From contig NZ_CP107928.1 in the NCBI RefSeq assembly GCF_036030735.1, positions 7,006,001 to 7,070,000 of the forward strand: a stretch of 64,000 nt of DNA, in the 5' to 3' direction. How positions within the stretch are numbered: position 1 is the stretch's first letter; every line of letters begins with the position of its first letter. The notes below the pieces were generated by a model, which saw only the letters and a list, made by a program, of their open reading frames with translations, made no database searches and was not told the origin of the DNA. Origin of the DNA: Streptomyces sp. NBC_00425. GTDB taxonomy: Bacteria > Actinomycetota > Actinomycetes > Streptomycetales > Streptomycetaceae. This document shows, one piece after another, positions 37,932 through 40,733 of the stretch. Position numbers and translations under genes: made by a program.

Positions 37932-38996
37932 ATGAGCGCTGTGACCCCCGCTGGAGGCGACACCGCGGCGGGCCGTTCCTGGCCCGAGGTGCTGAACGGT
38001 CTGCTGTACGGCCGCGACCAAGGCGCGGACGCCACGTTCTGGGCGCTGGACCGGATCATGCGCGGCGAGGCCACCGACGCGCAGATCGCCGGGTTCGTGG
38101 TGGCGCTGCGGGCCAAGGGCGAGACCGTCGAGGAGATCAACGGGCTGGTCCGGGCGATGTACGAGCACGCCAACCTGATCGAGGTGCCGGGGCCGACCGT
38201 CGACATCGTCGGCACGGGCGGCGACGGCGCGAAGACGGTCAACATCTCCACGATGTCGGCGATCGTCGTGGCCGGTGCGGGCGCCACGGTCGTCAAGCAC
38301 GGCAACCGGGCCGCGTCCTCCGCGTCCGGCGCCTCGGACGTGCTGGAGAAGCTCGGCGTCAACCTGGAGCTGACCCCGCGCCGGGTGGCCGAGGTGGCGC
38401 AGGAGGCCGGGATCACCTTCTGCTTCGCGATCAAGTTCCATCCGGCGCTGCGTCATGTCGGCGCGGCGCGCGGGCAGTTGGGCATCCGCACGGTGTTCAA
38501 CATCCTCGGCCCGCTGACCAACCCCGCCAAGGTGCGGGCACAGGCCGTCGGCGTCGCCGATCCGCTCATGGCGCCGGTCGTCGCGGGCGTCTTCGCCGAA
38601 CGCGGCAACTCGTCCCTGGTCTTCCGGGGCGACGACGGCCTCGACGAGCTGACCACGACGGCCACCTCCCGTGTGTGGGTGGTGCGCGACGGCAAGGTCA
38701 CCGAGGAGACCTTCGACCCGCGGGACGTCGGTCTCGACCTCGTGCCGGTGGAGGCCCTGCGGGGCGGGGACCCCTCGTACAACGCCGAGGTCGCCCGCCG
38801 TCTGCTGGAGGGTGAGCGCGGCCCGGTGCGCGACGCCGTCGTGCTGAACTCGGCGGCCGCGCTCGTGGCGCTCGAACCGGGCGGCGGGACGCTGGCCGAG
38901 GAGATCCGGGCCGGCATGGCGCGGGCCGCGGAATCACTCGACTCCGGTGCGGCCAAGCGGGCGCTGGAGCGCTGGGTCGCGGCCAGCAACGCCTGA
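37932..38996 (+). CDS. trpD: Anthranilate phosphoribosyltransferase
   Basis: Transfers phosphoribose from PRPP to anthranilate, second step of tryptophan synthesis. 354 aa. Signature loops: [18 protein letters not shown] (PRPP) and [14 protein letters not shown] (anthranilate); [17 protein letters not shown] follows. The ATG at 37932 has AGGAG 6 nt upstream. A TAGGGT -10 (37867-37872) sits after the qcr terminator. Other trp genes are absent here; the position after qcrB is conserved in actinobacteria. Confidence 0.96.
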
Positions 38997-39071
38997 CGGC
39001 CGTGAGACGCGGTCCCGCCATCCGGACACGGGTTGCGGGACCGTGATCGGCTCGCGTAGGTTCCTGTACCA

Positions 39072-39190
39072 GGTCATGAGTGACAGTCATGAGGCCCCGG
39101 CCGACTGTCCGGCAACCCTCCGTCCGTGGCGGGGTGCCCCGGGTGAAGACCAGGTCGTGGGCAACGAGGTCCACGGCAAGCGCGGATCCC
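39072..39190 (+). promoter_or_regulatory. SAM-IV riboswitch
   Basis: The stretch from GGTCATGAGTG through GGCCCCGGCC, CCGGCAACCCTCC, GCGGGGTGCCCCGGGTGA, GACCAGG and GGCAAGCGCGGATCC reproduces the SAM-IV aptamer consensus in order, including the P1 pairing (GGTCAT with the GTGAAGACC side), the SAM-core GGCAACCCTCC and the pseudoknot-forming 3' end. SAM-IV elements regulate methionine/cysteine genes in actinobacteria. Downstream are a hairpin, a six-codon ORF and then the class V aminotransferase gene. Confidence 0.93.
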
Positions 39191-39191
39191 T

Positions 39192-39226
39192 CGCACTCTT
39201 TCGAGTGAGAACGCCAGGGGTCCTGG
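39192..39226 (+). promoter_or_regulatory. Hairpins in the riboswitch expression platform
   Basis: CACTC/GAGTG around TTTC (about 39194-39207) and CCAGG (39214-39218)/CCTGG (39222-39226) lie between aptamer and mini-ORF. Neither has a U tract, so control of translation seems more likely than termination. Confidence 0.4.
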
Positions 39227-39246
39227 GTCGTCCGAGGGAGTCTCCT

Positions 39247-39267
39247 GTGAGCCAGCGAATGCGATAG
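39247..39267 (+). CDS. Six-residue leader peptide downstream of the SAM-IV riboswitch
   Basis: GTG AGC CAG CGA ATG CGA TAG encodes (f)M-S-Q-R-M-R. GGGAG lies 6 nt before the GTG, one of the best ribosome sites in the area. The ORF ends 101 nt before the aminotransferase ATG at 39369. One internal methionine codon. Too short for statistical support; the evidence is the ribosome site and its position. Confidence 0.5.
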   Translation: MSQRMR

Positions 39268-39368
39268 GGCGTAGAGCCCCGCCTCCGCACCCCCCTTTCA
39301 CCTTCCTCCGTGCTCGAGCCATGTCCGCTCGCACGGCGGTTCCCCCTTTCCTCTCACGGGAGTTCGCC

Positions 39369-40733
39369 ATGTCCGTCTCCACCGCTGCCGTCACCCGCCC
39401 CGTTTGTGCCCCGCTGGACGTTCTGGGCCGGGATGTCACCGTCCCGCTCGTCACCGGCGGCGAGGTCGCCTACGCGGCCCTCGACTACGCGGCCAGCGCC
39501 CCCGCCCTCCAGCGCGTCTGGGACGACGTCGCCGCCTACGCCCCGTACTACGGCAGCGTGCACCGCGGCGCCGGCTACCTCTCCCAGCTCTCCACGGACC
39601 TCTTCGAGAACGCCCGCAGGACCGTCGCCGAGTTCCTCGACTGCCGCCCCGACGACCAGCTGGTCTTCACCCGCTCGACGACGGACTCCCTGAACCTGCT
39701 GGCCCGCGCCCTGCCCGCCGACTGCCAGGTCTTCGTCTTCGAGACCGAGCACCACGCCTCGCTGCTGCCCTGGCAGGACGCCCGGGTCTCCTGCCTCGAC
39801 GCCCCGCGCACCCCGGGCCAGGCCGTGGAGACCCTGGAGCGGGCCCTCGCCGCCCGGGACCCGCACGGCCCGGCGCTGGTCTGCGTCACCGGCGCCTCGA
39901 ACGTCACCGGTGAGCTGTGGCCGGTGCGCGAGCTCGCGGCGGCGGCGCACGCCCACGGCGCCCGGATCGTCCTGGACGCCGCCCAGCTGGCCCCGCACCA
40001 CCCGGTGTCGGTCCAGGACCTCGACGTCGACTGGATCGCGTTCTCCGGCCACAAGCTGTACGCCCCCTTCGGCTCCGGCGTGCTGGCCGGCCGCGCGGAC
40101 TGGCTGGTCGCGGCGGACCCGTACCTCGCGGGCGGCGGCGCGAGCCGCAAGGTCACCCGGCGCGAGGACGGGGGAGTGGACGTGGAGTGGCACGAGAGCG
40201 CGGCCCGCCACGAGGCCGGCTCCCCGAACGTGATCGGCGCCTACTCCATCGCGTCGGCCTGCAAGGCCCTCACCGAGGCCGGCTTCGACGCCCTGGTCGC
40301 ACGGGAGCGGCACCTGATCGAGAAGGTGCGCACCGGCCTCGCGGAGGTCCCGGAGGTCCGGGTCCTGTCCCTCTTCGGCGACGACGCCCCGCGCGTCGGC
40401 GTGATCTCCTTCGTCGTCGAGGGCTGGAACAGCTCCCACTTCGCCGCGGCCCTGTCCGCCGAGTACGGCATCGGCGTCCGCGACGGCCTCTTCTGCGCCC
40501 ACCCCCTGGTCCGCACCCTCCTGGGCGGCGCCCCCGAGGCGCAGGGCGAGTGCGGCGCCCCCGACGCGGCTCCGGGCGAGAGGTCCCTCAACGCCATCCG
40601 GGTGAGCTTCGGCGCGGGCACCCCCGACGAGCACGTCGAACGCTTCGTGACCGCGGTCCGCGAGCTGGTGACCGACGGCGCGAAGTGGCGGTACCGCACG
40701 GAGGACGGCCGCTGCGTCCCGGCGGTGGACTGA
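39369..40733 (+). CDS. Class V aminotransferase (cysteine desulfurase/selenocysteine lyase-like)
   Basis: 454-aa PLP enzyme: PLP lysine in AFSGHKLYAPFGSGVLAG, substrate loop HHASLLPW, IRVSFGAGTPDEH at the end. It resembles SufS/CsdA-like proteins, but I cannot find a clear catalytic Cys loop of the SSGxxC type (GVRDGLFCAHPLV contains a cysteine at a similar place). The ATG at 39369 (MSVSTAAVTRPV) has GGGAG 6 nt upstream; the frame runs back to 39321. Located downstream of a SAM-IV riboswitch, so a role in sulfur amino-acid metabolism is likely. Confidence 0.9.
   Translation: MSVSTAAVTRPVCAPLDVLGRDVTVPLVTGGEVAYAALDYAASAPALQRVWDDVAAYAPYYGSVHRGAGYLSQLSTDLFENARRTVAEFLDCRPDDQLVFTRSTTDSLNLLARALPADCQVFVFETEHHASLLPWQDARVSCLDAPRTPGQAVETLERALAARDPHGPALVCVTGASNVTGELWPVRELAAAAHAHGARIVLDAAQLAPHHPVSVQDLDVDWIAFSGHKLYAPFGSGVLAGRADWLVAADPYLAGGGASRKVTRREDGGVDVEWHESAARHEAGSPNVIGAYSIASACKALTEAGFDALVARERHLIEKVRTGLAEVPEVRVLSLFGDDAPRVGVISFVVEGWNSSHFAAALSAEYGIGVRDGLFCAHPLVRTLLGGAPEAQGECGAPDAAPGERSLNAIRVSFGAGTPDEHVERFVTAVRELVTDGAKWRYRTEDGRCVPAVD

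Follow-up and report, generated by a model that had tools for sequence, protein, structure and literature searches.

A SAM-IV aptamer followed by a six-codon ORF

How does a SAM-IV aptamer act on a gene when the ribosome site adjoining it apparently serves a separate reading frame of only six codons? This question is raised by a leader within the window, i.e., the whole 64 kb stretch of DNA that was analyzed. The first-pass annotation had recognized a SAM-IV riboswitch at this place, and a covariance search confirmed it: the aptamer at 39072-39188 (+) matched RF00634 over the full length of the model (1-116) with 113.9 bits, the gathering score being 38, and was the only Rfam match at gathering threshold within the window. 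The aptamer is predicted to bind SAM selectively. The mini-ORF with its own ribosome site, claimed in the same annotation, was found as GTG AGC CAG CGA ATG CGA TAG behind GGGAG, with a spacer of 6 nt between GGGAG and the start. The leader and its gene comprise the following elements.

39072-39188, + strand: SAM-IV riboswitch aptamer (RF00634), 113.9 bits, full model
39184-39223, + strand: linker hairpin A, GGATCCCT (39184-39191) with AGGGGTCC (39216-39223), from pair count and alignment
39236-39240, + strand: mini-ORF ribosome site GGGAG, an SD-like match being present in 142/142 mini-ORFs
39242-39251, + strand: putative lock strand 1, CTCCTGTGAG, spanning the mini-ORF start codon and predicted to pair with 39353-39362
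39247-39267, + strand: mini-ORF M-S-Q-R-M-R, kept in 142/145 leaders
39267-39279, + strand: post-stop hairpin GGGC-GTAGA-GCCC, from stem counts versus shuffled sequences
39280-39352, + strand: untranslated C-rich, G-poor stretch from the hairpin to the main ribosome site, from base composition
39353-39362, + strand: putative lock strand 2, CTCACGGGAG, containing the main-gene ribosome site 39358-39362, from pairing tests
39369-40733, + strand: controlled gene, predicted class V PLP enzyme (cysteine desulfurase-like), from NCBIfam and PDB relatives

Linker hairpin A shares its first bases with the aptamer's 3' tail, and base 1 of the post-stop hairpin is the last base of the mini-ORF stop codon. 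Behind the aptamer a gene for a PLP class V enzyme had been annotated, and a class V PLP fold was indeed recovered for 39369-40733. The best NCBIfam match was the SufS family with 248.1 bits, far under the cut-off of 475.1, and the PDB relatives of the product were mostly cysteine desulfurases; the product is predicted to be a class V PLP fold enzyme of the cysteine desulfurase kind. An aminotransferase had been considered an odd partner of SAM-IV. This part of the annotation did not hold: a class-wide sample contained the same family in 35 of 48 leaders in which the gene follows directly, and an aminotransferase is an ordinary partner for SAM-IV.

We consider it probable that this leader is a SAM-IV-gated relay acting through the six-codon ORF, with its methionine-type core, on the class V PLP gene.

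Conservation of the mini-ORF in Streptomyces

SAM-IV was present in 147 of 150 Streptomyces genomes, and the main leaders of 145 of them were examined (G055 and G096 were left out). The comparison bore out the mini-ORF: the pattern [G/A/T]TG-NNN-NNN-CGA-ATG-NNN-TAG was kept in 142/145 leaders, each with an SD-like site. In these leaders it is the uORF and not the gene that owns the aptamer-adjacent ribosome site, as in a riboswitch-uORF relay. An aminotransferase-type gene start could be located behind 142 of the 145 leaders, 139 with and 3 without the mini-ORF; the remaining 3 loci were too short or gave no gene signature.

Among the 142 mini-ORFs the start codon was GTG in 133, ATG in 8, TTG in 1 and CTG in none. 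Both CGA-ATG and the TAG stop were invariant (142/142 each), and seven different residues occurred at codon 2, six at codon 3 and five at codon 6 (R 134, C 3, S 2, L 2, P 1). Since codons 2, 3 and 6 vary while CGA-ATG, TAG and the initiation site are fixed, strong selection acts on initiation, dicodon and stop, and the peptide as such is not conserved. CGA itself is rare, accounting for 19 of 2344 Arg codons (0.8%) in the downstream genes as far as they were sequenced.

A Met codon occupied position 5 in all 142 mini-ORFs; 4 of them had an extra ATG at codon 2, and 2 had one at codon 3. A short ORF with a ribosome site and with signs of selection on translation, read from the sequences alone, is present as in an attenuator; a run of regulatory codons was not found, the Met codons forming none. 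One internal Met codon makes a weak case for an attenuator of the classical type.

Furthermore, a 24-mer motif was carried by at least 119 named stretches. Among the 119 matches listed, 117 have a SAM-IV-like aptamer at most 230 nt upstream; in the other 2 the upstream sequence is truncated. When up to 2 mismatches were allowed, the own genome contained the motif once and a backward control pattern twice. One record titled Microtetraspora glauca (L274) has the Streptomyces motif; its title may be wrong.

The stretch might also be conserved as an RNA element that is not translated and serves in pairing or as a protein site, with the frame as a by-product. The fixation of CGA-ATG and TAG as bases, with varying residues at codons 2, 3 and 6, is what such an element would give. 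Start swaps confined to GTG, ATG and TTG, together with an SD-like site in 142/142, argue against it, as do several observations reported below, and we judge this explanation improbable.

Natural losses and other genera of the Streptomycetaceae

The mini-ORF was missing in 3 of the 145 Streptomyces leaders (L086, L132 and L142). The main-gene frame of L086 and L142 begins with GTG at the position of the mini-ORF start and uses the same ribosome site; an ATG is located at this position in L132. These natural losses agree with an expression of the gene that would depend on uORF translation. Adoption of the mini-ORF start by the main gene in L086 and L142 is, moreover, not expected of an untranslated element.

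Additionally, 34 leaders of other Streptomycetaceae genera were read by eye. A CGA-ATG mini-ORF starting with GTG, ATG or TTG was found in 16 of them and the aminotransferase directly behind the aptamer in 7; one direct gene was truncated too early to be named (L387), 3 leaders had another Met-bearing mini-ORF (L397, L400 and L401) and 7 were of other kinds. The mini-ORF of L386 consists of five codons and that of L368 stops one codon early, at TGA; the frame thus survives a change of codon length and a moved stop, which again speaks against an untranslated element. By eye, the Met-bearing mini-ORFs without CGA read M-Q-M-M-R in L397 and M-M-A in L400 and L401. As relay and direct forms both occur, the aptamer-adjacent ribosome site is predicted to be functional, in some leaders for the gene and in others for a leader ORF.

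Hairpins, lock helix and leader composition

Linker hairpin A had 7 pairs in 131 of 142 leaders. It was missing in the other 11 and is therefore not essential. Within 54 aligned leaders, 95.8% of its cells were paired, and one pair changed from C-G to U-A in 8 sequences. The post-stop hairpin (4 Watson-Crick pairs, loop of at most 12) was found in 128 of 141 leaders, as compared to 21% after shuffling of the following bases; a looser stem test separated less, with 138/141 versus 1854/2820 shuffled. No double changes of this hairpin were found among the 54 aligned Streptomyces leaders. In other genera the post-stop stems were altered yet paired, e.g., GAGGCC/GGCCTC.

A consensus scan of 38950-39420 detected no terminator-like site and no sigma-70 promoter, and a TANNNT box was found in a fixed upstream interval in 14 of 31 leaders. 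The gap from the mini-ORF stop to the main gene had median contents of 0.45 C and 0.24 G (136 leaders). C exceeded G in 123 of 124 gaps, with a median excess of 0.22; the gene's own start leans likewise, by 0.11.

The riboswitch might terminate transcription directly by its own hairpins, the mini-ORF being neutral. Premature transcripts at a SAM-IV leader before a class V PLP gene, described for S. clavuligerus in the accessible text of PMC8269248, would fit this possibility. The invariance of the mini-ORF, the absence of hairpin A from 11/142 leaders, the scan without a terminator and the direct leaders, whose aptamer-adjacent ribosome site belongs to the gene itself, all stand against direct termination, which we rate as quite improbable.

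Besides the hairpins, a lock helix may form between the mini-ORF start and the main ribosome site. At least 8 pairs were found in 93 of 139 Streptomyces leaders, in contrast to 140 of 1764 tests with control start regions and to 112 of 2780 shuffled sequences; fewer than 8 pairs were found in 46/139 Streptomyces leaders and in 5/5 other-genus leaders tested. Cognate lock partners reached 18.2, as compared to 17.2 (sd 0.18) for species-swapped partners. Over 133 leaders, 85% of the cells were paired in register versus 31-60% when shifted. A count on a tree built from about 420 bases per gene gave 12 double changes versus 1-7 in shifted registers, 8 of the 12 being the same exchange at one position, and 89 pair losses, above every shifted register. 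We take the lock helix as an addition of Streptomyces and not as a general principle. When the RNA was folded with the mini-ORF occupied by a ribosome, the mean unpaired fraction of the main site rose from 0.09 to 0.20 (32 leaders), a slight effect.

Two further pairings were considered. That CGAAT pairs with a TTCG around the start of the main gene was rejected, TTCG occurring in only 57 of 139 leaders; this failure of a CGAA/TTCG pairing is a further point against an untranslated element. Masking of the SD by CCCTCG/CGAGGG, checked in alignment A1 (54 of 112 non-redundant leaders), is not claimed, as by eye it was reduced to only about four pairs in several clades.

In a plainer form of relay, ribosomes on the mini-ORF would unlock the main site or reinitiate, no amino acid would be sensed and CGA-ATG would just slow the ribosome. 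Lock helices of at least 8 pairs in 93/139 Streptomyces leaders favor this form, as do the rarity of CGA and the variation of the residues besides R-M. It leaves unaccounted the Met codon at position 5 in 142/142 and the retention of Met codons (by eye) in the CGA-less L397, L400 and L401; a third point against it, the core common to the published methionine leader metL (PMC8079986, accessible text), is treated next. We regard this plainer relay as a less likely but serious alternative and prefer a relay with a methionine-type core.

The CGA-ATG core is common to metL

The metL leader peptide located before metNIQ of S. lividans is described as a methionine leader peptide with the end C-M-C-R-R-M-C-A-F in the part of PMC8079986 available to us; the leader-peptide table therein has no entry for the SAM-IV gene SLIV_26975. 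We searched metN loci of Streptomyces for leaders containing Met and Cys residues, the CGA-ATG pair not being required. A leader was found in 28 of 29 loci, and CGA-ATG was present in 28/28 (L407-L434); the weakly matching metN locus of G022 (L436) was left out. The following codon was TGC in 18, CGC in 7 and TGT in 3 of the 28, and R-M-C occurred in 21/28.

By its codons the mini-ORF, with R-M-R or rarely R-M-C, has a core in common with metL. The in-frame core CGA-ATG-[C/T]GN of the metL type is represented in the window by CGA ATG CGA; the long leaderless peptide with several Cys and Met codons is not, the mini-ORF comprising six codons without Cys behind an aptamer. The in-frame position of CGA-ATG in all 28 metL leaders again argues against an untranslated element. 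Near metH and metK RNA motifs, CGA-ATG was found in 1 of 20 and 0 of 20 cases, respectively. A codon pattern for C-M-C-R-R-M-C was set aside: it had 0 matches in the own genome and, when shortened, matches in 2 of 61 genomes.

Arginine-X-arginine is a drug-stalling motif of macrolide-dependent leaders. The mini-ORF might then sense antibiotics through R-M-R, which is present in 134/142. Codon 6 encodes C, S, P or L in the other 8, and metL has R-M-C in 21/28; we consider antibiotic sensing highly unlikely.

SAM-IV leaders across the class

SAM-IV was detected in 188 of 296 genomes sampled from the class. Outside Streptomyces, 82 leaders were counted, a number that leaves out the shorter loci L156, L175 and L180: 48 were followed directly by the gene (including L163, whose uORF overlaps the gene), 14 had a short ORF in between and 20 were unclassified. 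The direct leaders preceded 35 genes of the aminotransferase family and 13 metY-like genes; the genes behind the 14 short-ORF leaders were all metY-like. After removal of L234, an apparent chance ORF, 13 short-ORF loci remained.

Cys codons were present in 12 of the 13 metY uORFs and in-frame CGA-ATG in 7. As a control, 87 ORFs were taken that have ribosome sites but lie elsewhere in these loci; 22 contained Cys and none CGA-ATG. The starts of L159, L195, L230 and L238 were picked by eye, which biases the counts to Cys and affects the CGA-ATG count less. In-frame CGA-ATG in 7/13 metY uORFs is the last of the points against an untranslated element.

The own genome has two other SAM-IV copies, located at G000:C1 431100-431208 on the minus strand (L002) and 442448-442562 on the plus strand (L003). 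They are followed by the leader peptides M...RVSSALCTAPGRARCRG and M...SRRRHIDLKRSASCLCRA; with NCBIfam NF042934 ('putative leader peptide', cut-off 27 bits), one of the two scored 31 and the other 24.2 bits. By eye, the ORFs after these peptides resemble parts of ABC transporters.

Three single loci showed further arrangements. A Cys-rich SAM-IV uORF in L197 overlaps the metY start by ATGA, and the SAM-IV uORF M-R-R-L-R... in L163 overlaps the aminotransferase start by ATGA as well. In L168, the uORF Cys codons (TGTTGTCGCTG) are exactly complementary to CAGCGACAACA, which lies shortly upstream of the metY ribosome site.

A proposed two-step relay

A relay from SAM via the mini-ORF to the gene had been suggested in the first-pass annotation. 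Comparison supports the relay well; its SAM and expression steps are inferred. The support comes from the invariant CGA-ATG and TAG, the start swaps, the loss of the module together with takeover of the site by the gene, and the core of metL.

In the first step, bound SAM would stabilize the 3' tail of the aptamer and exclude ribosomes from the adjoining Shine-Dalgarno site. This site would, as comparison strongly supports, serve the six-codon leader ORF and not the gene. A ribosome on the mini-ORF would then cover the post-stop hairpin and, in roughly two of three Streptomyces leaders, break the lock, a step that the data support in part. Without a ribosome on the mini-ORF, the RNA would either end early in the C-rich leader or remain locked. 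The premature transcripts reported for S. clavuligerus (PMC8269248) would agree with such an early end.

The second input would be read at CGA-ATG, which is common to metL and presumably acts as the regulatory core of a leader peptide of the methionine type. A ribosome pausing there, its P site occupied by CGA and its A site by AUG, would extend back over the start region and forward to the foot of the hairpin. The footprint of a ribosome is large enough for such coverage of the start region, and the distance from the first base of CGA forward to the hairpin base is 11 nt, a geometry that fits a wait at CGA-AUG. Sensing of Met-tRNA is a plausible reason for the invariant AUG. Low SAM combined with slow Met decoding would give the highest expression.

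More tentatively, we suggest that in many actinobacterial lineages SAM-IV may stand in series with Met or Cys leader ORFs, SAM setting the loading of ribosomes and charged tRNA their residence. The six-codon copy of Streptomyces would be among the shortest of these, a two-input gate built on an invariant CGA-AUG.

If the relay is true, a riboswitch and a leader peptide read by the ribosome would form one logic gate, the second sensor of which is only six codons long. One RNA could read both a metabolite and the state of the ribosome and relay them to a gene of sulfur metabolism. The putative sensor is kept in 142/145 leaders of a genus of great industrial use, and since some natural leaders have the module and others lack it, the question can be tested directly. 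Furthermore, a fixed CGA-AUG dicodon in two otherwise unlike leaders poses a concrete puzzle about the function of this dicodon.

Comparison with known systems

The dual sensor had been called unusual. Signaling of a riboswitch via a uORF has precedents in the mycobacterial Mbox and B12 systems (PMC12810186, PMC11260477; accessible text of both), and the claim stands in part. The literature searched contained no description of a SAM-IV-gated uORF, an earlier mention being possible, and a search for the peptide MSKRMR gave no match.

The metL leader of metNIQ in S. lividans resembles the mini-ORF in its C-terminal R-M-[C/R], encoded by CGA-ATG-[T/C]GN. Unlike the mini-ORF, it has about 28-32 residues and, according to the accessible part of PMC8079986, is leaderless with no riboswitch upstream. 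Short leaders with Cys codons before sulfur genes, similar to the metY relays, are known from the polycysteine uORF attenuators of mycobacteria (Canestrari 2020, as cited in PMC13236596), which the cited title calls leaderless short ORFs.

SAM and the state of methionine tRNA are combined in one leader by the Xanthomonas SAM-I riboswitch with uncharged initiator tRNA (PMC7270179). That RNA, in contrast to the leader described here, binds the tRNA directly, and the accessible text mentions no uORF. For SAM-II of Sinorhizobium metA, the available part of PMC9373788 describes a ribosome site of the riboswitch that serves a distant start and a terminator between two AUG codons, both features being similar to the proposed relay; AUG1 and AUG2 are in frame, however, and no separate leader ORF is claimed there.

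In mycobacteria, B12 riboswitches with uORFs precede metE and ppe2, and translation of the uORF alters or relays the riboswitch effect, as proposed here (PMC11260477, accessible text). Stop and start overlap in ppe2, whereas 20-300 nt separate the stop from the main start in SAM-IV leaders. The Mbox-uORF-Rho leader of pe20 in M. tuberculosis (PMC12810186, accessible text) differs in its ligand, Mg2+, and in its uORFs, in which no amino-acid codon core was noticed. It has in common with the SAM-IV leader the order of a riboswitch followed by conserved uORFs and the combination of a translational platform with an early end of transcription.
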